Positions 1,672-23,800 of a DNA stretch of 64,000 bases are shown in pieces. This stretch comes from Lampris incognitus. Its lineage: Eukaryota; Chordata; Actinopteri; Lampriformes; Lampridae. The notes beneath the pieces are model-generated. The model had not been told where the DNA came from. It did not search any database and saw only the letters and a program-made list of their open reading frames with translations. The position numbers and the translations under genes were made by a program. The number at the start of each line of letters is the position of its first letter. Within the stretch, counting starts at the first letter, position 1. The stretch is taken from assembly GCF_029633865.1 (NCBI RefSeq), contig NC_079212.1, forward strand, positions 87,979,986 to 88,043,985, read 5' to 3'.

Positions 1672-2522
1672 AGATATTGGAGGGAGGGGTCCAGATTATA
1701 CAAAATAAGTTCCTGAGCTTTGCTCCTCAGGTCAACTGGTTGGACATAATGAAGGACCAAACATCTGAGATCATCATCAACAACAATGGGCCTCAAAGTG
1801 AGTAAGAAAGGATGAGAAGAGGCTTCACAGGAATGAGCCTCTGAATAAAATCTGTATCCACCAACTGGCTATGATTGCATGTACACACAAATTTGCTTTG
1901 GTTTGTTCATTTATTTCATTAAATATTTAAATGTATTTGATAATGCATTTGATAATTATCTTTTTTTTTCTTTTTTTTTAATGATCTCAGAGTCCTGTGA
2001 TGAAAAATGTGGTGATGTTCCATGTTGGGGTCCTGGGGATGACGCATGTCAGATCTGTAAGTCCAATAAACATCTCTCCTCCGAATGAACAAAACTCGGA
2101 TCAGTCAGTCAACACAGTATTGACCCCCCCCGTCTCTCTCTCTCTGTCTCTCTCAGTGACCAAGAGTGTGTGTGCCGCCCAGTGTAATGGCCGCTGTTTT
2201 GGACAAAGCCCCAGTGAGTGTTGTCATAAAGAGTGTGCAGGAGGCTGCAATGGACCACTAGACACAGACTGCTTTGTGAGTTTACAGCTGAAGTCATGAA
2301 CATAAGCACGATGCACAGTTTGAAGAAAAGTCTTTGACTATGAGCTGTTTGGTTTATGGAATGGGTGTGACTCTGCGCAGGTTTGCAGCAACTTCAACAA
2401 CTCAGGCTCATGTGTGTCCCAGTGTCCACAGACTCTGATCGACAACAAGCACACATTCAAACTGGAACCCAACCCTAGTGCCAAATACCAGTATGGATCC
2501 ATCTGTGTGGCCCAGTGCCCCA
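1672..2522 (+). CDS. Truncated copy, exons 4-7 (end of domain I and start of Cys-rich domain II)
   Basis: The exons are 126, 66, 119 and 142 nt, matching the downstream copy. All cysteines of the furin-like repeats are kept, for example [14 protein letters not shown] and [22 protein letters not shown]. The dimerization-arm loop in exon 7 reads [14 protein letters not shown], where the full copy has LIYNKHTF. The Tyr-to-Asp codon is 2441-2443. Confidence 0.85.
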
Positions 2523-5500
2523 GTGAGTCCCTGTACAAGCAGCTTTCTATTTATTTATTTTGTTTATTTGTAAGGGACCATGAACAATATTAAACATAAA
2601 TGTTTCCATTTCATGTGTTGTTTATCATTTTCATCTGCAGATCCTTGACCGGGTACTCGTAAAAATACATACATGATTTTCACAAATATAGTATAAAACA
2701 GTATGCAAAAATATAATACATATATCACTAAAGTATATATTTCCCTCTTACCCTTTTTCGGGTGGTGTGTTTCTTCCTCAAGTTCAGGTCCTCTACCAGA
2801 GGCCTAGGAGGGTTCTGCGTGGTATCTTAGCTGTTCCTAGGACTGCACTCTTCTGGACAGAGACCTCAGATGTTCCTGGGATCTGCTGGAGCCACTCTCC
2901 CAGTTTGGGGTCACAGCCCTAGTGCTCCTATTACCACTGGGACTACTGTGGATTTCACCTTCCACATCCGATCTAGTTCTTCCCTCAGCCCTTGGTATTT
3001 CTCTTCTTCTCATGCTCTTTTTTCCTGATGTTGCCGTCGCTCAGGATTGCTACATCAATCACTACTGTTCATCAATCACTACTGTCTTCTGTTCCTTGTC
3101 GACCACCACAATGTCTGGTTGGTTTGCCAGCACCTGCTTGTCAGTTTGGAACTTGAAGTCCCACAGGATCTTTGTTCTTCCATTCTCAACCACTTTTGGC
3201 ACTGTCTCCCATTTGGACTTGGGGACTTCCAGTCTATATTCAGTACAGATATTCCTGTACACTATCCTAGGACTTTGTTATGCCTTTCAGTATACGCTTT
3301 CCCAGCTATCATTTTACACCCTGATGCTAAGTGCTGGATTGTCTCAGAGCCATTTTTGCACAGCCTGCATCTTGGGTCTTGTCTGGTGTGGTAGACCCCT
3401 GCCAAACTGATCTGGTCCTGAGTGCCTGTTCTTGTGCTGCTATGATCAGAGCCTCTGCTGTCCTTCAGTCCAGACATTTCTAGCCATTGGTAGGAAGCTA
3501 ACTGCTAGTCCACGGCCCTGTCTGAGAGGAAACACTGAGGGCAGTCTGGCAGCAGCCTCACCTAGCGTTGACTATGTTTTAGTGTTGTCGTGTGGAGTGT
3601 GGGGAGGTGTGTCGAAGGTGTCTGGCTGGGAGAGCTGGGCGTTGGATCGGCTGGGGGAGCCTGGTCTGCCGCATCAGATGGGCCCAGGGACCACAGCCCT
3701 GCCTGGAGGTGTGCCTGAGGGGGAAACACTGAGGGCAGGCTAGGCTAACTGCTAGCTCATGCAGACCGGCAGTTCTGACGGTCATCCTGGCTGGCGTTCG
3801 TTCTCTGGATGGTGAAATTTTTGGACAGTGTTGCACTGAGTGGATGTGTTGTTAACTGTTTTGTTTTTTGTTTTGTTTTGTTATTTCTTTTGTGTACGAA
3901 AGTACATGAAAGAAATGACAATAAATTGTTCCTGAATCCTGTGATTCATGGCAAGGGTGAAGCGTTAATTGAGATGGTACACCCAGTTATAATCCCCTTT
4001 TCAAGCTGTTGCCAGTCAGATGTTGTGTTCCCAGAAGTGACTCTGAACCTGAAGTTCCTGTAGTAGTTCAGGATGAGGTCTTTGATCTTACTGGGTACAT
4101 AGTGTCAGTCCAGAGTAGTCTTGGTCAGCTTGTGGGTTATTGAGCCGTATGCATTGGCAAGGTCAAGCCGAAGCACAACTAGGTCACCTTTCCATTTGTG
4201 TGCCTCCCTGATCAACTGGGTGACAACTCCAGTCTGTTCTAGACACCCTGGAACTCCAGGAATGCCACCTTTCTGTACCCAAGTATCAATGTAAGCATTC
4301 TTACAGAGGAATTCTGTCATCCTTCTGGATAGGACACTGAACAAAATCTTCCCCTCCACACTGAGGAGCGAGATGGATTTGAACTGCTTCAGATTGTTTG
4401 AGTTCTTGCTTTGGTATCCAAATTCCCTCTGCCTGCCTCCACTGGTCCACCACTACCCTGGAACAAATCATTCCAGAATCTTCCAGAGGATACTGAGGAG
4501 CTCTGGGCAGCGCTTGTATACCCTAGAGGGTGCTCTACTGGGTCCCAGCCAAAGCTGGCCCTGGCTGCAGTAAACCACCCCCTGGACTTCCTTCCAGGTG
4601 GGTTCTCTGGTGTTGAACTCAACCGTGGGCAATGGTATGTACAAAAGAGCTCTGAGAGGTCCTAGCTCGTGCTGTCTATCAGGGTCACTCAGAGTGTTGT
4701 GCAGGAAGTGGTCTACCTCTTCTTTAGAGCGGACAAGATGACCGTTGCGCTTCTGCCCTAACAGCTACGTTGTGAATCCAAATGGATTGGCTATAAACAC
4801 CAGTACGCTTGCTGGCGCTCTTTGTCCTCCGTCTCATGTGCCATTCTTTAAGCAGGGTCATGAGTATCTTCCTGACAATGTAACAGAGCTCAGATAGTGG
4901 TGGTTTCTCCTCCTCGGTTGCTACCTTGAACTGCCTTGCCAGAGTCCGAAGCTCTTTCTTCAATTGGTGGATCTTGTCTATATGTTATATATAAACATTC
5001 AACGGTGAAGTGTGCAAAGTTGCAAAATTTAGAACCCAATGAAAAGTGCATGCATTTCAACCGGTTGGCTAACTTAAGAACATTCTTCGAAACAGTGTTT
5101 TCATATTTGGTTAGCTGTAGGCCAGATTTTAATTTAAATTTAAAACTGCTATAGGAACTATAACTCTTAATATCAATAGGAAGCGTGCTCCATTGTTTAT
5201 TGGCCTTACTAGAGAAAGAGGACTGCCTCTGGAAGAAGTTCAAGAGGATTTATTGCTGCTTTGTGCTTGTAGAATGATAAATTCACGTCGTGGAGGAGGG
5301 GCTAAATTGTGTTAAATTTTGAAAACGAGAAATATGAATAGAATCTGAAGTTCAAAGAAGGTTGATCAGTTCATCTGGATACATTTATTGACAGATAGGT
5401 TTCATCACTCAACTAAGTGACATCTTCAGTCTAAACTGACTGCGTATTCCCACCCTTCCCCCCACCACAAACAGTACAATAAGGGATGGGGATACCTGCA

Positions 5501-8500
5501 GTCAGTGTAGACTGAAGATGTCAGTTGAGTGATGAAACGTATCTGTCAATAAACGTGTCCAGATGAACTGATTCAACCTTCTTTGATTTTCTTACCTGGA
5601 TTATTGAGCATGTTCAAGACAGAATCTGAAGTTCCCAAAACTCAGAAGATTGCGTTTTTGGAGTATATCACAATAATCATATTGAATGGGCATTATCCAG
5701 AATTTTTAATACATTTTTATGTGGGGAATGCTCGGGTTTAATGGCCGTCTCTCCAGCTTGACCCAACATTGTGGCGCAAGACAAACAGTAGAGAATCAGC
5801 ATGCATGAATAACTTGGAAGTAAGTTTCTAATTTGCCTAAAATTGACTGTTGTCATTCTTTGTTTGTTAGAACTGAGGTTGGCATTCAAGGTGATGCAGA
5901 TATATTCATATTCAGAGACCATGTCAATCTTTTCTCCCTGAATTTAAATGTCAGTGTAAAGTGGTTGTTTTGAGGTTTAATAAAAACAAAACCCCAAGCA
6001 TCCCAAAAATTTTGCTTATGTTCAGGCTAAGATACAATTGCTCAAGCCACTGTGTGACTTCAGTCAAGGCCAAAGTAAGCATTGTCGCAACTTGCTCTGC
6101 TATTTTAGCATATCCATACAAAATACTGTCATCAGTGTACATCTGTATATCCACTCCTTGACACTGATGTGGAAGATCATTTATATGTATAAAAATATAA
6201 TAGGCCCAAGACTGATCCTTGTGGCACACCCATTGTGCACTGCAAACCACTAGAAATTAATTTATTTTATTTAACAATCAGTACCCTGTTTGATGGGACC
6301 GAGGCCATCCATGACAGTGCTTCAGAGGAGAAGTCAAACTTGGACAGTTTTGAAATGAGAGCATTGTGGTTGACTGTATCAAGTGCCTTCACTTCACCTT
6401 CACTTCACCTTACACCTCACCTTCACTTCACCTTACGTAAATCAAGTGCCTTGATTTACGTAAGGTGAAGTGACTTGCTCTGAAGCTAAATTGCATACGA
6501 TGTAAAGAAAAATTGCTAGCGATGGGATGTGTTTTCAGTTGGCCAATGTATAGTCTATAATTACTGGCTTCAGAACGGTGGGCAGATTTGCAAACAGGAG
6601 TAACAGTCACCGATTCACTGGTTTCCATGACTTGGGGAATGGACTCTATTGTATAGATAGGTTAATTAGTTGCATAATGGAGGGAGTTGTGATGTTTTTT
6701 GCATTTTTCAGTAAGCATTGTGTCAAGATGGAAAGCATCTTTGTTTTTGCTTTTGTTTTTTTAATCTTTTCAGGAATCAGTGGTTTTGTTCATATGTTCA
6801 TCATTAGTTGGAACTAAATAGAAAACTTGACTGGTGTCATCAATTACACACAAACCCACCTTTACACAGTCCCACCTCACGTAGCGTTGCTGTGAAGCCT
6901 ATATATCAATGTTTGTGTTTTAACAACACAGCATTCATATGTCAAGGCATTCTATATTTTTCCATATAATTATCATTCTTTAACTTAATAGATGAGGATG
7001 TCGTTGAGATTAACTGTAGGAGGAGTTTTGTGACTTAAAGCCAAGCTTACACCGATCAGCCCAAACATTAAAACCACTGACTGGTGAAGTGAATAACAGT
7101 GATCATATTGTTACATCCCACAGAAGAGCTACTGTAGGTCAAATTGCTGTAGAAGTAGATGCTGGCTATGATAGACAGGTGTCACAACACATAGTGCATT
7201 GCAGTTTGCTGCGTATGGGGCTGCACGCCTACAATGGGCACATGAGCATCAGAACTGGACCATGGAGCAATAGAAGAAGGTAGCCTGGTCTGATGAATCC
7301 CCTTTTCTTTAGCATCATGTGGCTGGCCAGGTGCGTGTGTGTCGTTCACCTGGGTAAGTGATGGCACCAGGATGCATTGTAAGAAGAAGGCAAGCTGGTG
7401 GAATGAGTGTGATGCTCTGGGCAATGTTCTGCTGGGAAACCCCGGGTCCGGTCATTCATGTGGACGTCAACCTGACACGTGCAACCTACCTCAACATCGT
7501 TGCAGACCAGGCAGTGGCCTCTTTCAGCAGTGTGGCGCCCCGCCACACTGTACGCATTGTTGGGGGATGGTTTGAGGAACATGATGAAGTGTTCAAGGTG
7601 TCGCCTTGGCCTCCAGATTCTCCAGATCTCAATCCGATCAATCAGCTGTGGGATGTGCCGTGCCGAAAAGTCCGATCCATGGCGGCCCCACCTCCCAATT
7701 TACATGGCTCAAAAGGATATGCTGCTCATGTTTTGGTGACTGATGCCGCAGGACACCTCCAAGGGTCTTGTAGAGTCCATGCCTCAGCGGGTCAGTGCCA
7801 TTTTGGCGGCACGAGGGGGGGGGGGGGGACCTAAACAACATTATGCAGGGGGTTTTCATGTTTTGGCTGATGGGTGTATCTCACCTCTTAAAATTCATTC
7901 TTTATACACTTGCTTTCAAACCTACTTTGTCTTTTGGGGTTTTGCTGTTTAAAGTTGTTTCTTGATGCACCTCATCTTACTTATTTTATTGTGTCTTTGA
8001 GTATAGTGTCTGTCCGTCTGACAGTTAAAGCAGTTTGTTGAAGGGTTTTTAAAAGTGCCAGTCCAATTAAGTTTATTATCAAATTATAATTTAGTAATAA
8101 CTTAATCCATTCAGAGCTATACCTTTACATAGCACTATGTCTCGTCTCTTTTTTTTCCATTTCTTCTGCTCTGTCAACGTTTCACAGCAAACTTTTTTGT
8201 GGATGGCAACTCATGTGTGAGCACCTGCCCCGCTGATAAGATGGAAGTGGAGAAAAAAGGAGTGAAAAGATGTGAGCCGTGTGGAGGCCTGTGTCCAAAA
8301 GGTACTTGATACAGAGTTCACTTACCATTTTAGTTACTACTACTATTACTTTCGGCTGCTGCCGTTAGGGGGCACCACAACGGATCATCCGTTTCCATCT
8401 CTTCCTGTCCTCTGCATCTTCCTCTGTCACACCAGCCACCTGCATGTCCTCCCTCACCACATCCATGAACCTCCTCTTTGGCCTTTCTCTTCTCCTCTTC

Positions 8501-11500
8501 CCTGACAGCTCCATATTCAGGATCCTTCCCCCCATATACCCAGCGTCTCTCCTCCACACATGTCCAAACCATCTCAATTTTGTCTCTCTTGCTTTGTCTC
8601 CAAACCGTCCAACCTGAGCTGTCCCTCTAATATACTCATTCCTAATCCTGTCCTTCATCACTCCTAATGAAAATCTTATCATCTTCACCTCTGCCCCCTC
8701 TAGCTCCACCTCCTGTCTTCCATCAGTGCCACTGTCTCCAAACCATATAACATAGCTGGTCTCACTGCCATCTTGTAAACCTTCCCTTCAACTCTTGCTG
8801 GTACTCTTCTGTCACAAATCACTCCTGACACTCTTCTCCACCCACTCCACCCTGCCTGTACTCTCTTCTTCTGCTCTCCCATTACCATTTCAGTTAATGT
8901 TGATCTATTTATTCATGCAATGATGATATACCCCCAGGATATAACCTGATAGTCCCCCAACCAGCCCCACCGCTTTCTACACACAGAATACATGCTGTGT
9001 GAAGGGCACCACGCCCCCCCGTGGGGTATCAGCCAGCACCCAGAAAAAAAAACTCGTCTTTTTTTCCTTATTTTACTTAATTTGTGTATGAGCTGTAACT
9101 ATCAAAGAAGAATTTAATAAATATTTTCAAAAGAGAATAACTTTGAGTACATTGTAAATTCTAAAAGTTAAGTTTACTTAATAAAATGTAGGAAACCAGT
9201 GACACTTGAGAAAAGTAAGTAAATAAAATTATTTGTGTCAAGTTATGTGAAATGATTTTATGTGAAATGAACTTGACACAACTAAGTTCATTTACTTACC
9301 TTTCCCAAGTGTAATCAGTTTCCTAATCTTTTCTTTTTTAAGTAAGCTTAACTTTTAGGATTTGCCGTGTAGTAATCAATGAACAGTTGTAAACTGTAGA
9401 TTAAAACTGTGAATATTGAAATAATAACTAGTAATAGTAAATAGTTTTAATAGCAGTTGTCATAGAAACTTATAAAATAGTATATATGAACTTGTATAAT
9501 ACATGAAATGGTAAAATTGCTTCATCGCTTGACCAACATTTCTGCTTCGGGTGTGGGAAGAGGGCTGCGCGAATTTGTTTTTGCAGCGGCCTCACCCAGT
9601 GCTGGTGTGGGAAGATGGCGGTGCGAATTCACATTTGCGGCAGCCTCACCCAGTACCGTCAATGCAGTGTCTTTTTCCACGTCTGCGTCTGTCTTCGTTT
9701 GATGGCTGAGGGCGGTCTAACAGGACATGGAAGCGGAGCGGGCTATGCTAGTTGCTAGCCCATGCAGACCGGCGATTCCGACAGTCATCCTGACTGGCGT
9801 TCGTTTCCTTGGACAGTGATTTTTTTGTTTAGTTTGGGAATGTGTGTTAGTTTAGATATGTGTATTCTTGTAGGTTTTGGATGTGTTTTTGTCTTTGTGT
9901 TGCACTGCTGTGGGCTGGGGGAAATGACATAAATAAAGTGTTCCTGATTCCTGACAACTGGTCTCCTGACATGTCTAGGAAAGTACACCAGTGGGGAATG
10001 GAGATGGAGGTGGAGGACACCGTACCTTGTTGGCTCTCACTGGCTCTGAAGTTGAATTAGATTGTCCTCTGCAATGATTTTCTTGACATGCTAGAAATTG
10101 GGGGGGGGGGCGACTTTGCTACCATTTGGCCAGGGGCACTGCTGCCCCCAACTCACCATAAATTGAAACTGCTTCACCCATCTTCATTGTTCTTCTCCTG
10201 TACCTCAGCCTCTCTCTCGTCTTCTTCTTCTCCTCCTCCTCCTCCCAGCTTGCCATGGAACAGGATCTCCCGACAGACAGACTGTAGATGCCCTGAACAT
10301 CGACAGTTTTATCAACTGCACAAAGATCCAGGGCAGCCTTCACTTCCTGGTGACCGGGATCAAAGGGTGAGCAAGACCGCGATGAGTCAAGACTACAATC
10401 CACTACTCCAGTGGTTTTCCTCGAACAAAGTTTATGGGGGTTTTTTTTCTTTGCTTTTTTGTGTCTCACAGTTCATCTGTGTTTTCAATGTTCTTCTTCC
10501 ACTAATACTTACTTTCATTATTTTTCTGTGCAAAGTGACGCTTACACAAACATCCCGGCCCTGGACCCGGAGAAACTACAAGTCTTCAAAACCGTGCGGG
10601 AGATTACAGGTGTGTGTTTGTCTGTGGGAATTTAGAAACTGTGTGTTGTCTCTTAAACTTTTGGTTTGTTCTATATCATCCTCCAGAATGAAAGACATAA
10701 TGCATTGTGCAGCATTCACTTGAACTTGTCAGGATAGAATAAGGATCAAATGAGGCCAATTAGATAATCAGTGACAGCTGCTTGAGGAAAGGTGAGTTTA
10801 CAGAACCAGTCTGTGTGATGTCAGCAGGGAGACTATTCCGGAGAAAAACCTCTGCAACCTGCTGACTTCTTTTATCTCAGAGGAGGCCTGCCCTCACTTT
10901 AGGATCGGAGAGCATGAGGCGTCCGGGTGGCATGGTGGTCTGTTCCGTTACCTGCCAACACGGGGATCGCTGGTTCGAATCCCAGTGTTACCTCCGGCGT
11001 GGTTGGGCGACCCAACAGACACAATTGGCCGTTTCTGCGGGTGGGAAGCCAGATGTGGGTATGTGTTGTGGTCGCTGCACTAGCGCCTCCTCTGGTCAGT
11101 CGGGGCGCCTGTTCGGAAGGGAGGGGAACAGCATGATCCTCCCACGCGCTACGTTCCCCTGGCGATCTAGGTTTTTTTTTTCCTCAGTCAAGAAGTAAGA
11201 CGTTAGAGAGGCGTCCAGGTAGCATAGGGGTCTAGTCCATTGCCTACCAACACGGGGATTGCCAGTTCGAATCCCCGTGTTACCTCCAGCTTGGTCGGGC
11301 GTCCCTACAGACACAATTGGCCGTGTCCGTGGGTGTGATGTCGGATGTGGGTATATGTCCTGGTGACTGTACTAGCGCCTCCTATGGTCGGTCGGGGCGC
11401 CTGTTTGGGGGGGAGGGGGAACTGGGGAGAATAGCGTGATCCTCCCATGCGGTACGTCCCCCTAGTGAAACTCCTCACTGTCAGGTGAAAAGAAGCGGCT

Positions 11501-14500
11501 GGCAGCTCCACATGTATCTGAGAAGGCATGTGGTAGTCTGCAGCCCTCCCCGGATCGGCAGAGGGGGTGGAGCAGCGACTGGGATGGCTCAGAGGATGGG
11601 GTAATTGGCCAAGTACAATTGGGGAGAGAAAAGGGGGAAAATTGAAAAAAAAAAAAGTTAGATGACATCTAGTGTTTAACTGCTTGCTTCTAAAGTGGGT
11701 GTAATGTCTTACTTTACAGGTACGTACAAATAAGTGTCATCTGCATAGCAGTGGACATTGATTCCATAGCTGAGGAAGAGAGATAGGTGAGATATACAAA
11801 GAAGGACCCAGAATTGAGCCTAAGAGTATGCCATGAAGAGTGGTGTCAAAGGCTCCACAAAGATCGAGTAACAATCAGTCTTTTGGACTTGGGCTGTTTC
11901 CAAGGGCAACGTGATGCCAGGCGCCATCTACCAAGGATCAGAGGCATTGTTTACAAATTAGCTAGCACTTTAGCCATTGACTTAGCCATATATTAGCGTT
12001 ACATTTACCTTTACCCTTACCTCACTGAGATGTTTAAAGAACATGATTTATTTGCGTCTCACTGCTGCAACGTAGGCCATCCTGCGCCTCTTGGTTAAGT
12101 CCTCTGTGTTTTTTCCTTCGTTTCTCTTCCAAGAAGGGAAAGAAAAAAAACAACCCATTCTCTGGTTTTTTACCGGAGTGATCGTGGGATTTGCTGTGGC
12201 AATTCTTCACACAACAGGAACACCCAACCATCTCGCCTGCGTGCAGTATCTAATCTAGTATATAGCTATATATCCAATCTAACCTAAAATTTACCTTAAA
12301 ATATATATATATATATACACACACATATAACTTAAAATCTCACCAGAGAAAATCTGTGATCGTAACGTTAATTTGAAAAAATAGTTGACGTACTAATAGA
12401 GTTAGTAAGAAAAATCTGTGCTATCAGCTAACAACAATGATTAACATTACTTGAAAGATGGCGGCGTGTGACATCACGACCGAAAGACCGATAGATTTGG
12501 AATCTGAATCCCTTGCCAGCAGCTCATTTACCACTTTCATAAATGCAATTATAGTAGAATGACCAGAGTTAAATGCAGATCGAAATAGCTCAAAAAGTTT
12601 GTTGTTGAACAAGAAAGCTATAAGTCGCTTAGCCACATTTCTTATACATGGTTACTGTAGTTGAAATATGATGAATGTGGTTGCAGATATTCTCAGTATC
12701 CAGTCGTGGCCTTCAGACATGCCTGATCTGTCGGTCTTCTCCAACCTCCAGATAATTCAGGGCAGAACACCTTACAGGTGACTACCTTTTTCAATGTTTT
12801 TGCTTGTTCTCGTTTCTTTTTCCAGTGCATGTCTATTTGTCATTGTTCTTACTGTTTTACATCTCATCATCCCCCTCATGCCTTTGTCAAATGCCCTCAT
12901 TTTTTCTTTTCATTTTTACCCTATTCAGAAGCATGAGCTCTAAAAGGTAGAGTAAAACATTTAATTTACCTGTCTTTGCTTCTCTCTGTGCAGCAACGTT
13001 TCACATTTCTGCTTTAGTTGTTCCTTATCCGATGCGAGGGTCTCAAGACAAGATGTTGTGTTGCTGTAAAGCTCCTTGAGGCAAATTTGTAATTTGTGAC
13101 ATTGGGCTATACAAATAAAATTGACTGACTTTATATAATGCAGAGCACACATCTAACACAATTCCTCACCTTAAGTACTACTACTACTACTTTCGGCTCC
13201 TCCCGTTAGGGGTCGCTGCAGCAGATCATCCATTTCCATCTCTTCCTGTCCTCTGCATCTTCCTCTGTCACACCAGCCACCTGCATGTCCTCCCTCACCA
13301 CACACATAAACCTCCTCTTTGGCCTTCCTCTTTTCCTGTTCCCTTGCAGTTCCATATTCAGCATCCTTCTCCCAATATACCCAGTATCTCTCCTCCACAC
13401 ATGTCCAAACCATCTCAATCTCACCTCTCTTGCTGTCTCCAAACCGTCCAACCTGCGCTGTCCCTCTAATGTACTCGCTCCTAATCCTGTCCTTCTTTGT
13501 CACTCCCAATGAAAATCTTATCATCTTCAACTCTGCCACCTCCAGCTCCACCTCCTGTCTTTTCGTCAGTGCCACTGTCTCCAAACCATATAACATAGCT
13601 GGTCTCACAACCATCTTGTAAACCTTCCCTTTAACTCTTGCTGGTACCCTTCTGTCACAAATTGCTCCTGACACTCTTCTCCACCCACTCCACCCTGCCT
13701 GCACTCTCTTCTTCACCTCTCTTCTGCACACCCCGTTACTTTGGACAGTTGACCCCCAAGCACTTTGGACAGTTGACCCCCACTGACCCACTTCAGTGTT
13801 GCGTGGAGGTTGGGGACAGTACCTGTGGAGTAGCAGACTGGAGTGGTGGTTCCCATATTCATAAAAGGGGACCGGAGGGTGTGCTCCAGTTATCGGGGCA
13901 TCACATTGCTCAGCCTCCCTGGGAAAGTACTCTAGGGTGCACGAAAGGAGGCTCCAACCAATTGTCAAACCTCGGCTCCAGGAGGAACAATGCAGATTCC
14001 GTCCTGGCCGTGGAACAACGGCCCAACTCTTTACCCTTGCGGAAGTGCTGAGGGGGGCATGGGAGTTTGACCAGCCAGTCTACATGTGTTTTGTGGACTT
14101 GGAGAAGGCTTACAACTGTGTACCCCAGGGCACTCTGTGGGAGATACTGCGGGAGTATAGGGTACCGAGGCAGTTGCTACAAGCCATCCGGTCCTTGTAT
14201 AACCAAAGTGAGAGCTGTGTCCGCATTCTCGGCACAAAGTCAAACACGCTTTCAGTGGGTGTCGGACTCCGCCAAGGTTGTCCTTTGTCTCCGATTCTGT
14301 TTATGATATTCATGGACAGAATCTCAAGGTGAAGCCAAGGTGAGGAGTGTGTCCGTTTTGGGAACCTCAGAATTGCACCTCTGCTCTTTGCATATTATGT
14401 GGTTTTGTTGGCTTCATCAGAATGCAACCTCCAGCGTGAACTGGGGCGGTTTGCAGCTGAGTGTGAAATGGCTGAGATGAGAGTCAGCACCTCCAAGTCT

Positions 14501-17500
14501 GAGGCCATGGTTCTCTACCGGAAAATGGTGGCTTGCTCCCTCCGGGTTGGGGATGAGTTGTTGCCTCAAGTGAAGGAATTTAAGTATCTCAGGGTCTTGT
14601 TCACGAGTGAGGGTAGGATGGAGCGGGAGATTGACAGGCGGATTGGTGCAGCATCCACAGTATTGCGGACGTTGTACCGGATCGTTGTGGCAAAGAAGGA
14701 GCTGAGCCAGAAGGCAAAGCTCTCAATTTACCATTCAATCTTCATTCCAATCCTCACCTATGGGCATGAGCTTTGGTAGTGACCGAAAGGGTGAGATCGC
14801 GGATACAAGTGGTTGAAATTAGTTTCCTCCGCAGGGTGTCTGGGCTCAGCCTTAGAGATAGGGTGAGGAGCTCGGACATCCGGAGGGAACTTGGAGTAGA
14901 GCCGATGCGCCTTCGCATCGAACAGAGCCAGTTGAGATGGTTTGGGCATCTGATTAGGATGCTTCCTGGGCACCTTCCTTTGGAGGTTTACCGGGCACGG
15001 CCAACTGGAAGGAGATCCCGGGGTAGACCCAGAATGCGCTGGAGGGACTACATGTCCAATCTGGCCTGGGAACACCTTGGGATCCCACAGGAGGAGCTGG
15101 AGGGCGTTGCTGGGGAGAGGGACGTCTGGAGTGCCCTACTTAGCTTGCTGCCATCGTGACCCGACCCCGGAGAAGCGGCTGAAGATGAGATGAGACCCCC
15201 AAGTATTTAAACTCATTTGCCTTCGTCACCTCCACTCCTTGCATCCTCACCATTCCACTGTCCTCCCTCTCATTCATGCATAGGTATTCCATCTTGCTCC
15301 TACTGACTTTCAATCCTCTTCTCTCCAGTGCATACCTCCACCTCTCCAGGCTCTCCTCAACCTGCATCCTACTCTCGCTACAGATCACGATGTCATCCGC
15401 GAACATCATAGTCCACAGAGACTCCTGCCTGATCTCGTCCGTCAACCTGTCCATCACCATTGCAAACAAGAAAGGGCTCAGAGCCGATCCTTGATGTAAT
15501 CCCACCTTCACCTTGAACTCATCTGTCACTCCTACTGCACATCTCACCACTGTCAGACTTCCCTCATACATATCCTGCACCACTCCTACATACTTCTCTG
15601 CAACTCCCGACTTCCTCATACAATACCACACCTCCTCTCTCGGCACCCTGTCATATGCTTTCTCTAAATCTAGAAACCCCAATTCCAATGAAGTTGGGAC
15701 GTTGTGTAAAACGTGAATAAAAACAGAATACAATGATTTGCAAATCCTTTTCGACCTATATTCAAGTCAATATACTACAAACACAAGATATTTAATGTTC
15801 AAACTGATACACTTTATTGTTTTTTTGCAAATATTCACTCATTTTGAATTTGATGCCTGCACCATGTTCAAAAGAAGCTGGGACAGGGGCAACAAAAGAC
15901 TGGGAAAGTTGAGGAATGCTCAAAAAACACCTGTTTGGAACATTCCACAGGTGAACAGGTTAACTGGAAACAGGTGAGTGTCATGATTGGATATAAAAGG
16001 AGCATCCCCGAAAGGCTCAGTCGTTCACAAGCAAGGATGGGGTGAGGTTCCCCACTTTGTGAACAACTGCGTGAGCAAACAGTCCAACAGTTTAAGAACA
16101 ACGTTTCTCGCAAGGAATTTAGGGATTTCCTCATCTACAGTCCATAATATCATCAATAGATTCAGAGAATCCGGAGAAATCTCTGCACGTAAGCGGCAAG
16201 ACTGAAAACCAACATTAAATGCCCATGACCTTCGACCCCTCAGGTGGCACTGCATTAAAAACCGACATCATTGTGTAAAGGATATTACCACATGGGCTCA
16301 GGAACACTTGGGAAAACCATCGTCAGTTAACACAGTTCGTCGCTACATCTGCAAGTGCAAGTTAAAACTCTCCCATGCAAAGCCAAAGCCATATATCAAC
16401 ACCACCCAGAAACGCCGCCGGCTTCTCTGGCCCGACCTCATCTGAGATGGACTGACGCAAAGTGGACAAGTGTGCTGTGGTCTGACGAGTCCACATTTCA
16501 AATTGTTTTTGGAAATCATGGACGTCGTGTCCTCCGGGCTAAAGAGGAAAAGGACCATCCAGATTGTTATCAGCGCAAAGTCCAAAAGCCAGCATCTGTG
16601 ATGGTATGGGGGTGTGTTAGTGCCCATGGCATCATGGGTAACTTGCACATCTGTGAAGGCACCATTAATGCTGAAAGGTACATACAGGTTTTGGAGCAAC
16701 ATATGCTGTCATCCAAGCGATGTCTTTTTCAGGGATGTCCCTGCTTATTTCAGCAAGACAATGCCAAGCCACATTCTGCACGTGTTACACCAGCGGGGCT
16801 TCGTAGTAAAAGAGTGCTGGTACTAGACTGGCCTGCCTGCAGCCCAGACCTGTCTCCCATTGAAAATGTGTGGCGCATTATGAAGCACAAAATACGACAA
16901 CGGAGACCCCGGAGTGTTGAGCAACTGAAGCCGTACATCAAGCAAGAATGGGAAAGAATTCCACCTACAAAGCTTCAACAATTAGTGTCCTCAGTTCCCA
17001 AACGCTTATTGAGTGTTGTTAAAAGGAAAGGTGGTGTGACACAGTGGTGAACATAACCTTGTCCCAGCTTTTTTGGAACATGTTGCAGGCATCAAATTCA
17101 AAATGAGTGAATATTTGCAAAAAAATAATAAAGTTTATCAGTTTGAACATTAAATATCTTGTTTTTGTAGTGTATTCAATTGAATATACACTACCGTTCA
17201 AAAGTTTGGGATCACCCAAACAATTTCGTGTTTTCCATGAAAAGTCACACTTATTCACCACCATATGTTGTGAAATGAATAGAAAATAGAGTCAAGACAT
17301 TGACAAGGTTAGAAATAATGATTTGTATTTGAAATAAGATTTTTTTTACATCAAACTTTGCTTTCGTCAAAGAATCCTCCATTTGCAGCAATTACAGCAT
17401 TGCAGACCTTTGGCATTCTAGCTGTTAATTTGTTGAGGTAATCTGGAGAAATTGCACCCCACGCTTCCAGAAGCAGCTCCCACAAGTTGGATTGGTTGGA

Positions 17501-20500
17501 TGGGCACTTCTTTGAGCAGATTGAGTTTCTGGAGCATCACATTTGTGGGGTCAATTAAACGCTCAAAATGGCCAGAAAAAGAGAACTTTCATCTGAAACT
17601 CGACAGTCTATTCTTGTTCTTAGAAATGAAGGCTATTCCATGCGAGAAATTGCTAAGAAATTGAAGATTTCCTACACCGGTGTGTACTACTCCCTTCAGA
17701 GGACAGCACAAACAGGCTCTAACAGGTACTATTTAATGAAGATGCCAGTTGGGGACCTGTGAGGCGTCTGTTTCTCAAACTAGAGACTCTAATGTACTTT
17801 TCTTCTTGCTCAGTTGTGCAACGCGGCCTCCCACTTCTTTTTCTACTCTGGTTAGAGCCTGTTTGTGCTGTCCTCTGAAGGGAGTAGTACACACCGGTGT
17901 AGGAAATTTTCAATTTCTTAGCAATTTCTCGCATGGAATAGCCTTCATTTCTAAGAACAAGAATAGACTGTCGAGTTTCAGATGAAAGTTCTCTTTTTCT
18001 GGCCATTTTGAGCGTTTAATTGACCCCACAAATGTGATGCTCCAGAAACTCAATCTGCTCAAAGAAGTGCCCATCCAACCAATCCAACTTGTGGGAGCTG
18101 CTTCTGGAAGCGTGGGGTGCAATTTCTCCAGATTACCTCAACAAATTAACAGCTAGAATGCCAAAGGTCTGCAATGCTGTAATTGCTGCAAATGGAGGAT
18201 TCTTTGACGAAAGCAAAGTTTGATGTAAAAAAAATCTTATTTCAAATACAAATCATTATTTCTAACCTTGTCAATGTCTTGACTCTATTTTCTATTCATT
18301 TCACAACATATGGTGGTGAATAAGTGTGACTTTTCATGGAAAACACAAAATTGTTTGGGTGATCCCAAACTTTTGAACGGTAGTGTAGGTGGAAAAGGAT
18401 TTGCAAATCATTGTATTCTGTTTTTATTTACGTTTTACACAACGTCCCAACTTCATTGGAATTGGGGTTTGTACAAAGACACAATGCAACTCCTTCTGAC
18501 CTCTATACTTCTCCATCAACATTCTCAAAGCAACCTTCACATCTGTGGTGCTCTTTCATGGCATAAAACCATACTGCTGCTCACTAATCGTCACCTCTCC
18601 TCTTAACCTAGCTTCTATTGCTCTTTCCCACACCTTCATGCTGTGGCTGATCAACTTTATAGCTCTGTAGTTGATACAGTTCTGCACGTCAGCCTTTTTT
18701 CTTTTAAATCTTAAGATGAGGAATTGAAAATTCCTCATCTTAAGTACAATGTTTCACAAATGGTTCAAGTAGGCGACAAGAAGGTGAGGCCAAGCAAGAT
18801 CCAAACGCCAGTTAAAGCTTTTACTGTAGTTATAAATAATGTACATAACAATCATGAAGTGTGGTCATGTGGGAAATCAGTAGTGTGCGTTTGTGTGGCT
18901 GTACGCTGAATATCGTATTAGGGTGTTGGAAAAGATACAAAATAACAAACCAAGCCTAGAAAACAAACAAAGTGTGGAGCCTGTGGAGGAAGGGAAAGCG
19001 AGCCTTCTCTGAAGGTTTTATACGGGCAAAAGCCAGCGTTGCCACCTCATCAGTCTCATGAGCCTCGCAGCTCTGCCCGCAAACTGCCTGTGAGGGAAAC
19101 GAGTACAGGACAACAAGCAGACAGGGTGGGGAGGTACAACAACTTCATACGAACGTTATGAAATGTTATTGTTTAGAGGTTCATGAGGAGGTGATGCTCT
19201 TGCATTTATTTATGAAAATTGATTGATAATTGAAGAGGTATTTATGCCTGTAATTGGGTTGGTCTGTTGTACTTTGAGCAAAATCGTAACTATGGACACT
19301 GATTCATCACGGGCATTTCCTTACTGATTAAACTCCCTCATTCTGACCACTTTTAGGGGCTACTCTCTTCTGGTGATGAAGATTCCCTCTCTGACCTCTC
19401 TGGGACTTAGCTCGCTGCGGAGGATCAATGACGGCGGCGTCTACATCACGGGGAACAAGATGCTGTGCTACCATAACACCGTCGACTGGACACGACTCTT
19501 GGGCAGCAGCGGCTCCCGCCCCCAGCGGCGTCAGAAGCACATCGACGTCAAGGACAACCGTTCACTGAACCGATGTGGTGAGAGACAGACCGAGGGGTGT
19601 TTAGACTGGCATCCTTAACTGGTTTCTCAAAGAAAGTTGAGTCAGTTTATCTGGACACAACGTTTATTGACAGAACCGTTTCAGCACTCATATATCGCCC
19701 CTTTCCCACTACATGGTACCAGCTCAACTCGCAGAGTGTCGTTTTCTGTTACCATACCCCCTCAGTGTAGCTTGTCTGTATTGATTTTGGTATCCGCTCC
19801 AGTTTTTTTGGAACCTGGACAAAGGTGGTACCAGAAAAGTGGTAACAGTTACCAAAATGCCTGTATTTTCCAGTATGGAAAATTAAAAAAATCAGGTTGA
19901 GTTGAGTCGGTACCATTTAGTGGAAAAGGGGCATAAGTGACCTCTTCAGTCTCAACTGACTGCAGGTATCTCCACCCTTATAAACAATACAGTGGCATAA
20001 TGACCGAAACCAATGATCAGTTTCATATGCAAATTGTTGTGACCATTAACTAGAGTTACAACGGCCATGTGTACATTCACAGAGGATTGGGGAATAGTTG
20101 CAATCACAGCATTGTAAGATGGTGACAGATGTACTCTTAGACTGCCCCCCTCAGTTCAGGGATGGTCGTCCCCTCTTCAAACCAGCCTTCCTCCCTATCA
20201 AGGATGTGCACATCCTCATCCATGAAAGAGTGGCCACTGGCCTGTAGATGGTGTAGGGCAGTGTTTCCCAACCCAGTCCTCAAGGAACCCCTGTCCCGCA
20301 GATTTTCTTTGCAACCCTGAATAGGTACCTGTTTGTAGTTATTCAACCAATCAGCAATGAATTATGTCAGATGTTGCACACCTTGCATAATTAAGTGCTC
20401 TGAGATGAACGGTTGAGTAAGTACAAGCAGGGCTATCTATGCAGGGTTACTATGAAAATCTGCAGGATAGGGGGTCCTTGAGGACTGGGTTAGGAAACGT

Positions 20501-22716
20501 TGGTGTAGACTGTAGAGTCCTGGTCTGATGTATTAGCTCTCCTGTGTTGTGCCATCCTCTTGGCCAGCATCTCTTTAGTTTCCCTGATGTACAAGTCACA
20601 GCATTAAAATGTCACCATCTTACACTGCTGTGAATGCAAACATTTCCAAATCCTCTGTGAATAGTACACATGACCATTGAAACTCTAGTTAATGGTCACG
20701 CCTATATTTGCATATGAAACTGATCGTTGGTTACGGTCATTATGCAACTATTGTTTATAAGGGTGGGGATACCTGCAGTCAGTTTAGGGCCCAGACACAC
20801 CAAACCGACATCAGAGAACTAGCGGCGACGAAGGATGACTGTCGTGTCGCCTCACATCACCTGTCTGGGCCAAAAAGTAGCACTTGAACACACGGCAAAG
20901 ACTACGGCCAGCTAACATGTATGTTCTGCAACTGCGTGAGAGGAAAAATTCTTGAAATGTTCCGGTGAGATGAAGACAAAAAAATGAGAAGAGCCTACTA
21001 TGTGTGTGGCCTCTTCATTGTTTACTTGCTTTCGTAACTTCCGTTTCTCTTCTCGTGCACTCACTGACGGGCTCCGCCGCCAATTCAACATGCTGAATCG
21101 GCTGAAAAGCTGCCGACAGGTCCGGCTAGTGGCAACAGTGCGGGACACTCCACAAAAACTAGGGCCACAGAGGCTCACCAACAGCCCGACACTGGCCGAC
21201 CATCGGCCTGGTGTGTCACGGCCTTTAGACTGAATAGGTCACTTAGATGAGTGATGAAACGTAGCTGTTGATGAGTGCTGTGTCCAGATGGACTGATTCT
21301 TACCTGGATTACTGAGCATGCATCAAGACATTTACTGGCTCCTCTTATGTTGGTGTTAACTTTGTAATGTGTGTATTGCAGTTGCAGGGGGCCATGTATG
21401 TGACCCCCAGTGCTCCTCTGATGGATGTTGGGGTCCTGGGCCAAACCAATGTCTGTCCTGCAAGAATTACAGTAGGGGAGGAACCTGTGTCCCACAGTGC
21501 AAGTTCCTCACGGGGTCAGTTTTCACAAAGTCACGATGGTCGAGGTGGAGTATGTTTGCTGTCTCGCTGTGTTTCACGGTAAACATGTTGTTCTCTTTTT
21601 GTGTGTGCAGGGAAAGACGTGAGTTTGCTACTGTGAGAAGCGAGTGTATGCCCTGCCATGCGGAGTGTGAGGTTCAGGAGGGGAAGCCAACCTGTACTGG
21701 CCCGGTATGCTCCTCTCCAGCCTTTGGCTGGCTGACACAGTCAATCAGATCTTACTTTATTCAGACACATAGGTAGGTCCTTATTAAAAAGAAAAATACA
21801 ACACAGGACAAGAACACAAAATACAGCTAACAGCAGTTCACAAGTCCACAATGATTAAAACCTATACAGACATTTGTTCCAGTGTTTCCAGAAACAAGAG
21901 CAGTACCATGTGTCACTTTGTGTAGGCTCAGTTAAGAGCATTATAATTACATTCTTGGAATCAGTTAATCGGCACACAAATTTGTGCATAAAATTCCTCA
22001 ACACAGCGTTAAAAGTGGGAACATTACTAGTCACAAACATAGGACTTGCACTTGTCCATCTTGGAAGCTTGAGCAAGATTCTGAATGCATCATTATATGC
22101 TGCCTGCAGCAGCTTTTTCATTGTTGCTTTGCCATAGTCTCACCACAAGTGGGCAGTATAGAGTGGAGTACAGTAGGCCCCCTCAAAAGAGCAGTTTTAC
22201 CATCATCTGTACACGTATGACATTTGCGTGCCAGCATGTTGGCTTATGCATACAGTTTATGACATTGGCGCTGCACGTCATCATCGTCATCATCATCACA
22301 TAGATGATTGCTAATGATGAGACCCAGATGTCTTACTCTGTTCACCACATTTAGTGCTTGTTCTGCCAAGAAGAATGAAGCACAAAACATGTCAAATTCT
22401 AGAAACATCTGCACACAACCTGGCTCTGTGACACTAATGTTAGGAGCTGGAAGTCAGCTGCTCTCATGTCGTGGCACTATGCTGGAGAGGATTCTTTACA
22501 AGGGGTGTTGAGTTGATTCACGTTTAGCTGTTGTTCATTAGGACAATTGGGAAACAGTACGAGAGAAACGACACAGAAAGCTCCGGGGAGTTCAATCCCG
22601 AGGCAGTAGAGGCCTGTATGTGACTCCACAAGCAAAGGACAAACCAAAATAAGCCACATAACACTGCATTTCTTTCTCTACAGGGAGCAGACGAGTGTGC
22701 GGTTCGAGCGTCCTGA
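1672..22716 (+). CDS. Truncated tandem erbb3 copy: ectodomain exons 4-15, candidate soluble receptor
   Basis: Eleven exons match exons 4-14 of the full erbb3 downstream, with identical lengths and phases: 1672-1797, 1991-2056, 2157-2275, 2381-2522, 8188-8301, 10249-10366, 10536-10609, 12687-12777, 19357-19577, 21382-21514 and 21611-21704. A twelfth starts at 22684. Every acceptor is AG and every donor GT, and no frame is broken. Exon 15 reads [10 protein letters not shown] and then TGA at 22714-22716, where the full copy continues for 51 codons; homology ends near 22700. Encoded regions are the end of domain I, the Cys-rich domain II, domain III and most of domain IV. The transmembrane and kinase parts are absent, and exons 1-3 are not in the window. 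Exon 12 shows about 20 differences in 221 nt from the other copy, roughly half silent. A possible poly(A) signal lies at 23198-23203. It could be a secreted ErbB3-like ligand trap, or a pseudogene that has not yet decayed. Confidence 0.8.
2766..4978 (-). mobile_element. R4/Rex6-like LINE with restriction-like endonuclease, degraded
   Basis: Minus-strand fragments in order are 4724-4963 (basic N-terminal region), 4105-4359 (RT segment with [20 protein letters not shown] and [11 protein letters not shown]) and 3262-3477 followed by 3062-3262. The last two hold a CxxC...H...C zinc knuckle, then RHNKVLGIVYRNIC, then QPDIVVVDK, the PD-(D/E)xK-like core. The C-terminal knuckle followed by a restriction-like endonuclease is typical of R2/R4-type elements. 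Repeat family A is inserted at 3494-3945. It carries frame breaks and is inactive. Confidence 0.6.
3494..3945 (+). repeat. Interspersed repeat family A, copy 2
   Basis: It runs from AGCTAACTGCTAGTCCACGG to GACAATAAATTGTTCCTGAA and contains the same internal blocks as the copy at 590-1255. It sits inside the R4-like LINE, so it is younger than that element. Confidence 0.6.
5390..5429 (-). ncRNA. Candidate hammerhead ribozyme core (left pLTR arm)
   Basis: The minus strand reads CTGAAGA (5429-5423), then a 6-bp stem II (GTCACT paired with AGTGAT, one wobble), GAAA (5403-5400), a short stem III and GTC (5392-5390). The stem II pairing is better here than in the right arm. Confidence 0.42.
5512..5547 (+). 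ncRNA. Candidate hammerhead ribozyme core (right pLTR arm)
   Basis: The core CTGAAGA (5512-5518) fits CUGANGA. A stem II region follows, then GAAA (5534-5537), a 2-3 bp stem III, and a GTC cleavage triplet ending at 5547. Stem I can form from GTTTA-type and TAAAC-type flanks, but with a two-base mismatch beside the core. Hammerhead motifs are known from pLTRs of Penelope-like elements. Activity is not shown. Confidence 0.4.
6390..6475. repeat. CACTTCACCTT tandem repeat with short palindrome
   Basis: Several TTCACTTCACC units are followed by an inverted repeat around 6435-6472, where AAGTGAAG-type and CTTCACTT-type arms flank a TTACGTAAATC / GATTTACGTAA centre. Confidence 0.6.
6660..7050. other. 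Intron 7 of the truncated copy, no element recognised
   Basis: Part of this stretch is ancestral intron. Sequence around 6845-7010 (CACAAACCCACCTTTACACA, TTCATATGTCAAGGCATTC) matches 45025-45080 and 46835-46860 in intron 7 of the full gene. This supports duplication of exons together with introns. Confidence 0.5.
7051..7885 (+). mobile_element. Degraded Tc1-like transposon
   Basis: The terminal repeats read GATCAGCCCAAACATTAAAACC at 7057-7080 and its inverted partner at about 7850-7878. The + strand keeps pieces of a DD34E transposase: [13 protein letters not shown], then a C-terminal [11 protein letters not shown] where the catalytic Glu should follow PI and is Asn. The element is short (about 830 bp) and frameshifted, so it is dead. 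Confidence 0.7.
8188..8301 (+). CDS. Truncated copy, exon 8 (end of domain II)
   Basis: This 114-nt exon has a TTTCACAG acceptor and a GGTACTT donor. It encodes [20 protein letters not shown] and ends [10 protein letters not shown], the standard junction between domains II and III of ErbB receptors. Phase is 1 on both sides. Confidence 0.88.
8312..8888 (-). mobile_element. RTE/BovB-like LINE, 3' fragment
   Basis: The minus strand encodes the C-terminal part of the RTE polyprotein ([43 protein letters not shown]). Its 3' end carries the family's TAGTAGTAGTAA-like tail, seen on + as ACTACTACTATTAC at 8336-8349. It is 5' truncated and frame-broken, and sits just after exon 8 of the truncated copy. 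Confidence 0.75.
8889..9150. other. Intron 8 of the truncated copy, mostly unique
   Basis: A short segment (8935-8965, ending ATAGTCCCCCAAC) matches 47330-47350 in intron 8 of the full gene. The rest, with a C-run and an A-run near 9020-9050, is unrecognised. Confidence 0.4.
9153..9365. mobile_element. Fold-back MITE
   Basis: Inverted arms read TTCTAAAAGTTAAGTTTACTT at about 9157 and AAGTAAGCTTAACTTTTAGGA near 9340-9362. They extend inward through GGAAAC...AGTGACACTTG on one side and CAAGTGTAATCAGTTTCC on the other, and through matching TAAGTAAAT blocks. There is no coding capacity. Confidence 0.65.
9545..9957 (+). repeat. Interspersed repeat family A, copy 3
   Basis: It shares GCTAGTTGCTAGCCCATGCA, CATCCTGACTGGCGTTCGTT and the end block GACATAAATAAAGTGTTCCTGA with the other copies. 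It is diverged and has no coding capacity. Confidence 0.55.
10249..12777 (+). CDS. Truncated copy, exons 9-11 (domain III, first part)
   Basis: Exons are 10249-10366 (118 nt), 10536-10609 (74 nt) and 12687-12777 (91 nt). They encode the L2 ligand-binding domain segments with [27 protein letters not shown] and VREITG, and SNLQIIQGR. All are in frame with each other. Long open frames that run through 10249-10609 without splicing are not real. Confidence 0.85.
10915..11175 (+). mobile_element. tRNA-derived SINE, 3' truncated
   Basis: The head resembles a tRNA gene with an A-box-like GGTGGCATGGTGGTCT and a B box GGTTCGAATCCC. The conserved body includes CAGACACAATTGGCCG and GCACTAGCGCCTCCTCTGG. 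The tail is missing. The same family recurs immediately downstream and at 35391. Confidence 0.75.
11212..11650 (+). mobile_element. tRNA-derived SINE, near full length
   Basis: The tRNA-like head has B box AGTTCGAATCCC. It is followed by the CACAATTGGCCG body, a GGTGAAACTCCTCACTGTCAG segment and an A-rich end at about 11634-11655. It is a second member of the family at 10915, inserted in the same orientation. Confidence 0.78.
11656..12686. other. Intron 10 of the truncated copy, fragmentary repeats
   Basis: At 11735-11760 the minus strand reads HCYADDT, an RT YADD box, so a LINE remnant covers at least about 11730-11900. A TA/CA simple repeat lies at 12301-12327. The remainder shows no recognisable gene. 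Confidence 0.4.
12955..13145 (+). mobile_element. LINE/SINE 3' tail remnant
   Basis: It ends with GTAAAGCTCCTTGAGGCAAA followed by GGGCTATACAAATAAAATTGA. This is the conserved 'TGTAAAGC...TACAAATAAAA' terminus of fish L2-type elements and their SINEs. No coding remains. Confidence 0.5.
13760..15194 (+). mobile_element. Rex3-like LINE insertion
   Basis: The + strand encodes Rex3-type [36 protein letters not shown], then [19 protein letters not shown] and [20 protein letters not shown]. It ends CTGCCATCGTGACCCGACCC plus GAAGATGAGATGAGA, the Rex3-type 3' end. The YADD box region is altered (14391-14401) and the frame breaks more than once. It is 5' truncated and inactive. Confidence 0.75.
15673..18471 (+). 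mobile_element. Tc1-like transposon (outer), with nested second Tc1
   Basis: The terminal inverted repeats are about 75 bp, beginning GAAACCCCAATTCC at 15673 and ending with its complement at 18471. TA duplications lie at 15671-15672 and 18472-18473. A transposase in broken frames spans about 15987-17050. It has an N-terminal helix-turn-helix ([12 protein letters not shown]), WSDES (first Asp), QQDNAKPHS (second Asp) and [11 protein letters not shown] (Glu), so the DD34E residues are all present. A stop near 16203 and frame shifts make it non-autonomous. Confidence 0.85.
17189..18385. mobile_element. Snap-back Tc1: head-to-head palindrome of two 5' ends
   Basis: The element is bounded by TA at 17187-17188 and 18386-18387, with ends CACTACCGTTCAAAAGTTTG. 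The left arm (17189-17723) and right arm (17851-18385) are 535-bp inverted copies around a 127-bp spacer. Each arm begins a Tc1 transposase on opposite strands ([20 protein letters not shown] at 17568 + and 18006 -). Only the right half continues into [19 protein letters not shown]. The arms look nearly identical by eye. Confidence 0.85.
18728..19356. other. Intron 11 of the truncated copy, end
   Basis: No gene is seen. The last 120 bases (TTTATGCCTGTAATTGGGTT and following) match 49690-49806 before exon 12 of the full gene. This is duplicated intron sequence. Confidence 0.5.
19357..22716 (+). CDS. Truncated copy, exons 12-15 (end of domain III, domain IV, premature stop)
   Basis: Exons are 19357-19577 (221 nt), 21382-21514 (133 nt), 21611-21704 (94 nt) and 22684-22716. 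Exon 12 encodes [20 protein letters not shown], exon 13 the [17 protein letters not shown] module, and exon 14 the [16 protein letters not shown] module. Exon 15 stops after [10 protein letters not shown]. The sequence after the stop has no match to exon 15 of the intact gene, so the truncation looks like a rearrangement breakpoint and not a point mutation. Confidence 0.82.
19693..19936. mobile_element. MITE with GCCCCTTTCCCACT termini
   Basis: The terminal repeats read CGCCCCTTTCCCACTACATG and its inverted partner ACTAAATGGTACCGAC region (19905-19936). There is no coding capacity. It interrupts the left Penelope arm between the two hammerhead-core blocks. Confidence 0.65.
20259..20502. mobile_element. 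hAT-type MITE, copy 1
   Basis: The 244-bp element has inverted ends CAGTGTTTCCCAACCCAGTC and GACTGGGTTAGGAAACGTTG. The likely 8-bp target duplications GTGTAGGG and GTGTAGAC match at 6 of 8 positions. It splits the GIY-YIG remnant and is the same family as 25432-25673. Confidence 0.75.
20785..21229. mobile_element. MITE with GGCCCAGACACACCAA termini
   Basis: The ends read GGGCCCAGACACACCAAACC and the inverted GGCCTGGTGTGTCACGGCC. They are flanked by TTTAG on both sides. It lies in the right Penelope arm. No transposase is evident. Confidence 0.6.
21765..22360 (-). mobile_element. LINE 3' fragment
   Basis: The minus strand at 21855-22121 encodes [20 protein letters not shown], then a conserved [10 protein letters not shown] and a [11 protein letters not shown] end. 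This is a C-terminus recurrent in fish non-LTR elements of the jockey/CR1 group. It is in intron 14 of the truncated erbb3 copy. Confidence 0.55.
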
Positions 22717-23392: not shown

Positions 23393-23800
23393 GTTCTTCA
23401 TCTCATCTCGTCTCATCATCAGCTGCTTCTCCGGGGTCGGGTCGCGGTGGCAGCAAGCTAAGTAGGGCACTCCAGACATCCCTCTCCCAGCAACTCCCTC
23501 CAGCTCCTCCTGGGGGATCCCAAGGCATTCCTAGGCCAGATTGGACATGTAGTCCCTCCAGCGAGTTCTGGGTCTACCCCGGGCTCTCCTCCCAGTTGGC
23601 CGTGCCCGGTAAACCTCCAAAGGAAAGGTGCCCAGGAGGCATCCTAATCAGATGCTCGAACCACCTCAACTGGCTCCTTTCGACGCGAAGGAGCAGCGGC
23701 TCTGCTCCGAGCTCCCTCCGGATGTCAGAGCTCCTCACCCTATCTCTAAGGCTGAGCCCAGACACCCTACGGAGGAGTACTTCCTGGAAGTGACTTAGTC
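23393..23800 (-). mobile_element. Rex3-like LINE, 3' fragment
   Basis: The minus strand encodes [20 protein letters not shown] and the [18 protein letters not shown] block of the Rex3 C-terminus. The + strand starts CATCTCATCTCGTCTCATCA, the complement of the Rex3 3' end. Confidence 0.75.

Follow-up and report, generated by a model that had tools for sequence, protein, structure and literature searches.

The short erbb3b copy that lies upstream of, and in tandem with, full-length erbb3b in Lampris incognitus is probably a functional gene for a secreted ErbB3b ectodomain, acting as a soluble neuregulin trap. It has the make-up of a decoy receptor: a signal peptide (judged by eye) and ligand-binding domains, with no membrane anchor. 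We refer to the short copy as copy A and to the full-length gene as copy B. Both belong to the region of a 64,000-nucleotide window (C2:87979986-88043985) within the 1.48-Gb genome; window positions are C2 positions minus 87979985, and sites upstream of the window carry negative coordinates. The gene order is fkbp11, copy A, copy B and pa2g4, with fkbp11 on the minus strand at about -79.0 to -79.9 kb, upstream of copy A (tblastn); between these two neighbours the kinase-less copy and the full-length gene form a tandem pair. RPS26, sought as a neighbour by tblastn, gave no match, and a tblastn search for further erbb3 copies between fkbp11 and copy A, using the copy B ectodomain, returned only three weak matches (E 2.4-4.8). 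The 164 kb examined contain zero N. Large tandem-repeat arrays lie ~55-58 kb upstream of the window start, with BLAST offsets suggesting periods of ~22-23 bases, and erbb3a (C2:22.245-22.254 Mb) is found on the same contig as erbb3b, ~66 Mb apart.

Copy A consists of 15 exons that, spliced in silico, form a single open frame of 587 codons (Table 1). All 28 splice-site dinucleotides are GT-AG, the phases are as in copy B, and a search of the 587 codons and 28 splice sites revealed no stop, frameshift or lost splice site. A sequence-only reading of the window had described exons 4-14 as keeping the splice sites, lengths and phases of the intact gene. Splicing against copy B bore this out: together these exons amount to 1,298 nt, equal copy B in length and phase, and have AG/GT at each boundary. 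The same reading placed the end of the frame ten codons into exon 15, with an AATAAA about 480 bases on; the TGA falls exactly there, and the AATAAA lies 482 nt past it, followed by a GT-rich stretch. Exons 1-3, for which it had advised looking upstream and whose absence it would have taken as a refutation, are all present with a start codon and signal peptide, 41.6, 25.2 and 12.6 kb before the window start, open and correctly spliced. When the exon-1 region of copy B was searched against the genome, the single strong match elsewhere was at -42218 (737 bits) and contained copy A exon 1, the 38 other listed matches all being at or below 75 bits. Exons 2 and 3 were located with a stretch of human ErbB3 as query. 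The first residues of copy A are signal-peptide-like by eye, and the proposed in-frame, transmembrane-less ErbB3 ectodomain is upheld. Between exons 11 and 12 of both copies there is also an 18-nt microexon candidate, at which A and B differ in 4 of 18 sites; the copy A product would be 593 aa with it and 587 aa without. In the erbb3a intron, a 9-nt microexon candidate was seen by eye.

Table 1 Features of the erbb3b locus. Positions refer to the window unless given on C2.
Feature	Position	Strand	Basis or remark
Copy A promoter and 5' flank	from C2:87937767	+	upstream of window
Copy A exon 1, start codon and signal peptide	C2:87938258-87938345 (-41727..-41640)	+	match to copy B exon-1 region; splicing
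Copy A exon 2	C2:87954677-87954834 (-25308..-25151)	+	ErbB3-query match; splicing
Copy A exon 3	C2:87967234-87967420 (-12751..-12565)	+	ErbB3-query match; splicing
Copy A exon 4	1672..1797	+	splicing
Copy A exon 5	1991..2056	+	splicing
Copy A exon 6	2157..2275	+	splicing
Copy A exon 7	2381..2522	+	splicing
Copy A exon 8	8188..8301	+	splicing
Copy A exon 9	10249..10366	+	splicing
Copy A exon 10	10536..10609	+	splicing
Copy A exon 11	12687..12777	+	splicing
Copy A possible in-frame microexon, 18 nt	12929..12946	+	AG before, GT after; same place in copy B
Copy A exon 12	19357..19577	+	splicing
Copy A exon 13	21382..21514	+	splicing
Copy A exon 14	21611..21704	+	splicing
Copy A truncated exon 15: ten codons, then stop TGA (22714-22716)	22684..22716	+	splicing
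Copy A candidate 3' UTR	22717..23197	+	between stop and AATAAA
Local repeat S3 in copy A 3' flank	22998..23394	+	genome search
Copy A candidate polyadenylation signals, ATTAAA (23193) and AATAAA (23198)	23193..23203	+	
Copy B promoter and 5' flank	30783..31274	+	54 of 483 aligned columns differ from copy A
Copy B exon 1, signal peptide	31275..31362	+	splicing
Copy B exon 2	38148..38305	+	splicing
Copy B exon 3	39610..39796	+	splicing
Copy B exons 4-15 (ectodomain) with introns	43827..51841	+	splicing
Copy B microexon candidate, 18 nt	49435-49452	+	AG before, GT after
Copy B transmembrane exon, missing in copy A	52105..52246	+	checked
Copy B pseudokinase and tail exons with introns	52247..62035	+	read by eye, exons unjoined
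pa2g4 first coding exon, downstream neighbour	63196..63277	+	tblastn, ends checked

Copy B looks intact: exons 1-15 were spliced, the transmembrane exon was checked and the remainder was read by eye. On that reading its pseudokinase loop is of the HRN type, which we take to be the mark of a pseudokinase, and the tail ends at 62035. Intron 3 of copy B holds a second, partial and near-identical copy of exon 3 (40855-40991), with AG before it and a donor after. Another copy B intron carries LINE-type reverse-transcriptase-like open reading frames at 55741-60183, into which a further element seems to have inserted (open reading frame list, by eye).

The copy A protein is of the ErbB3 type. In a search against PDB, ErbB3 chains score best (E 8.9e-61 with exons 4-7, 1e-121 with exons 8-15), ahead of ErbB4, EGFR and ErbB2. 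Pfam recognised both L domains (PF01030, two stretches), the furin-like domain (PF00757) and GF_recep_IV (PF14843). The protein starts with the signal peptide, continues through domains I, II and III, ends halfway into domain IV and has no transmembrane segment. GF_recep_IV (132 positions) was matched at positions 1-76 in copy A versus 1-121 in copy B, whose query ended with exon 15, and domain IV is thus partial in copy A. Exon 7 presumably carries the domain II dimerisation arm. In exons 1-14 there are 42 cysteines in each copy, with a cysteine differing at two positions; one at residue 142 of copy A is absent from both copy B and erbb3a. Three N-glycosylation motifs of copy B are missing in copy A. 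By EGFR numbering, copy A should retain all six disulfides of the N-terminal part of domain IV. The last copy A residue matched to the ErbB3 chain 1m6b is 556, and in human ErbB3 the domain IV segment serving as tether for domain II probably begins at about residue 562. As copy A ends just before the expected position of the tether loop, the tethered low-affinity state should be out of its reach. The features of a full-length receptor (transmembrane segment, pseudokinase) are absent from the frame, which ends in exon 15; past the stop, a tblastn search of 22.6-31.2 kb for later exons, with the copy B ectodomain and transmembrane peptide as query, gave only three weak matches (E 1.8-3.5).

Copies A and B are collinear in pieces from the 5' flank through exon 15, inside which homology breaks off at ~22702. 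The copy B 5' flank from ~23.07 kb matches that of copy A from ~-44.9 kb, with later insertions present. Matching 5' flanks are expected of a direct tandem duplication of erbb3b with one end at the promoter and the other within exon 15, and such an event would have given rise to copy A. A haplotype or assembly artefact was ruled out by the divergence, which is 10% over exons 1-14 and reaches 19-26% in some intron segments, and by the lack of N in the sequence examined. The S3 repeat downstream of copy A occurs in three places among the matches listed, all at the erbb3b locus (the others being C2:87925702-87926078 and C2:87935552-87935850). With three sites at one locus, the locus may have been duplicated more than once, and S3 may mark a lost third unit. 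This short repeat carries an AATAAA and sits near the promoters of A and B, plus once further upstream. The stretch 22702-22998 had no match elsewhere in the searches made.

We then asked how the two copies have diverged. Across exons 1-14 (1,731 nt) they show 176 differences, with a dS of 0.280, a dN of 0.064 and a dN/dS of 0.229. Exon 12 (221 nt) contributes 21 of these, 10 synonymous and 11 non-synonymous, close to the earlier count of about 20, half of them silent. Changes were polarised using erbb3a from the same genome, covering 530 of 577 codons. The 67 amino-acid changes fell 16 on A and 14 on B, with 37 ambiguous, and synonymous-codon changes 30 on A and 23 on B, with 27 ambiguous. 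When either outgroup was accepted, the amino-acid changes numbered 18 on A, 14 on B and 40 ambiguous (binomial p 0.60).

A three-branch codon model returned an omega of 0.235 for A and 0.187 for B. An omega of 1 on the A branch was rejected with A and B lengths equal (2dlnL 52.5), with A half of B (26.2) and with A twice B (76.5); with all branch lengths free it went unrejected (2.7, not significant) because the erbb3a outgroup is distant. Equal omegas for the two copies were accepted with free lengths (2dlnL 0.06), equal lengths (0.52) and A twice B (2.0). They were rejected with the A branch at half of B, where omega was 0.35 for A and 0.14 for B (2dlnL 8.2), and A may accordingly be the less constrained copy. 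A dN/dS near 1 had been named in advance as evidence against a working gene. The pairwise ratio lies far below that value, and on the A branch itself an omega of 1 is excluded only if the clocks of A and B agree within about twofold. Provided that the neutral rates of the two copies differ by no more than twofold, the protein sequence of copy A is under constraint, and copy A has probably been constrained for most of its life.

The divergence is patchy. Across the 14 exons, synonymous changes are heterogeneous (chi-square p 0.0036) and non-synonymous changes are not (p 0.77). Exons 2-4 are the most diverged, with a dS of 0.54 and a dN/dS of 0.13. Exons 7-10, with a dS of 0.12 and a dN/dS of 0.58, look relaxed (Fisher p 0.012 versus the rest, from rounded counts and for exons chosen after seeing the data), their ratio being close to that expected for a neutral A beside a constrained B. 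Noncoding divergence ranges from 0 of 31 sites in one piece, 6-9% in introns 5 and 6 and 3-9% in the far 5' flank, through 12-15% in parts of introns 1, 4, 12 and 13, to 19-26% in parts of introns 1, 2, 3, 11 and 14. Gene conversion is the likely cause of this pattern: given the uneven synonymous divergence and the low values in introns 5-6, it may have refreshed copy A. The same heterogeneity, together with low divergence in introns 5-6 and a portion of the 5' flank beside high divergence in parts of introns 2, 3, 11 and 14, would also be produced if copy A were a pseudogene held open by repeated conversion from copy B. In that case, the strongest constraint would hardly be found in the most diverged exons, nor would polarised amino-acid changes be balanced between the copies, and we regard this explanation as very improbable.

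The promoters differ in a more directional way. In promoter and 5' flank there are 41 CpGs in B versus 12 in A; 23 of the B promoter CpGs are TG or CA in A, and none the other way round. The observed/expected CpG ratio over promoter and exon 1 is 0.97 in B (30783-31450) and 0.41 in A. Outside CpG, 23 of 402 promoter and 5' flank sites differ (5.7%), for which constraint or conversion may be responsible. The CpG difference more probably arose by loss on A than by a gain of that size on B, a direction judged from comparing the two copies. Such a pattern would be left by germ-line methylation of the copy A promoter and fits tissue-restricted use or silencing. The coding exons contain 76 CpGs in B and 48 in A. 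When these were polarised by erbb3a, B showed 13 gains and 3 losses and A 4 gains and 4 losses; the coding difference is thus mostly gain on B, which rules out coding-exon CpG loss as a sign of the death of copy A.

The one-directional promoter difference could instead indicate a gene that was long functional and has lately lost its expression, its open frame and splice sites being leftovers. The high dN/dS of exons 7-10 points the same way, as do the 259 positions at which erbb3a and human ErbB3 agree: copy A is the only one to depart from the shared residue at 8 of them and copy B at 2, while both do so at 32. Such a death would have to be very recent. In neutral simulations at the estimated branch length, the frame stayed free of stops in 2 runs when started from A and in 1 when started from B, out of 4,000 each. 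With as little as 0.06 changes per site, roughly half of the exon 7-10 dS, no more than 3-4% of runs were stop-free and the probability that all 56 splice-site bases stay unchanged was 0.035, with indels coming on top. The low dN/dS of exons 2-4, the most diverged, also argues against it, and we consider a recently dead gene unlikely.

Constraint on copy A could also arise if it served as an alternative ectodomain, with read-through transcripts joining its exon 14 to exon 15 of copy B, such that it was maintained as part of a membrane receptor. Copy A lies upstream of copy B on the same strand, its exon 14 donor is intact and the two exons are phase-compatible. Yet copy A retains its own exon 15 acceptor, stop and polyadenylation signal and, in the published account of Amphiprion clarkii, PCR from short into long erbb3b genes gave no bands (PMC9997566). 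This arrangement therefore seems to us quite improbable.

Returning to the favoured reading, a neuregulin trap, copy A would be transcribed up to the AATAAA at 23198 and its product secreted, with neuregulin predicted to bind through domains I and III. The product could then act as a soluble trap, possibly doubling as a dominant-negative partner by way of the dimerisation arm, so that ErbB2/ErbB3b signalling would be damped. As the promoter no longer has a CpG island, expression is probably confined to a few tissues. By analogy with human p85-sErbB3, which is reported to bind heregulin, copy A should trap neuregulin. The main role of a secreted product might instead be that of an additional dimerisation partner or of a transcriptional co-activator, rather than of a ligand trap. 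The authors of the anemonefish study propose extra dimerisation arms or transcriptional co-activation for the short copies of those fish (PMC9997566), and the furin-like domain II, which holds the arm, is present in copy A. The ligand site in domains I and III is nonetheless retained as well, and human p85 is reported to act by binding ligand (PMC10670120, PMC4022415); we give this alternative little weight.

In fish, neural crest, Schwann cells and pigment cells depend on ErbB3b and its neuregulin ligands for guidance of their development. With a soluble ectodomain encoded by a gene of its own, this pathway would have a heritable brake under independent regulation. Here such a copy is found in another genome, with a complete structure, signs of constraint near those of the intact gene and an end just before the tether. 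A more speculative extension, which we hold to be possible though doubtful, is that short erbb3b is old and widely kept in spiny-rayed fish, as a tether-less neuregulin trap selected over tens of millions of years and used in restricted tissues to tune ErbB3b in neural crest and epithelia. If true, this would be a vertebrate receptor decoy of the ErbB family that has a gene to itself and does not depend on splicing or shedding for its production.

Soluble receptors of related design are known. EGFR ectodomains cut before the tether (sEGFR501 and the like) have been engineered or are produced by splicing, and without the tether region of domain IV they should bind ligand more tightly. They share with copy A the loss of this region and differ in deriving from EGFR, not ErbB3. 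Within the same genome, erbb3a has the same ectodomain exons as A and B and is an older paralogue at a separate locus. The human proteins p85-sErbB3 and p45-sErbB3 are, like the copy A product, secreted ErbB3 ectodomains without membrane and intracellular parts; they come from alternative splicing of ERBB3, whereas copy A is a separate gene. According to the published descriptions, p85-sErbB3 binds heregulin about as well as full-length ErbB3 (PMC10670120) and blocks activation of ErbB2, ErbB3 and ErbB4 (PMC10670120, PMC4022415, PMC13259870).

The closest counterparts are the short erbb3b genes of anemonefishes. Among the open-licence papers listed, the anemonefish study (PMC9997566) and a review mentioning it (PMC10624958) were the only ones recognised as dealing with extra erbb3b genes. 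As described there, A. clarkii has two (gene1 and gene2, 636 aa), A. ocellaris has one and the other anemonefishes tested have one by PCR; the genes encode the extracellular part only and stand in tandem with full-length erbb3b, with fkbp11 and pa2g4 on either side (PMC9997566). In A. clarkii, liver, gall bladder and intestine show high expression of all three erbb3b genes, and the authors, who describe a pigment role for erbb3b, link the short copies to melanism (PMC9997566). The sections of the paper examined contain no test for selection on these copies (PMC9997566). A dedicated tandem gene for a soluble ErbB3 ectodomain, which the sequence-only reading had supposed to be new, was therefore already on record, and copy A belongs to a known kind.

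On the published account, the anemonefish genes resemble copy A in having 15 exons, an extracellular product without a kinase, a tandem position and fkbp11 and pa2g4 as neighbours. Compared by that description, copy A, at 587 aa, is 49 aa shorter than the 636-aa anemonefish proteins, which stop later, at exon 17 of the long gene by the authors' placing, as against exon 15 here. The long A. clarkii gene has 29 exons, including an 'exon 12' missing from the short genes (PMC9997566), which is perhaps the 18-nt microexon seen here; if so, copies A and B both keep an exon that the anemonefish short genes are without.
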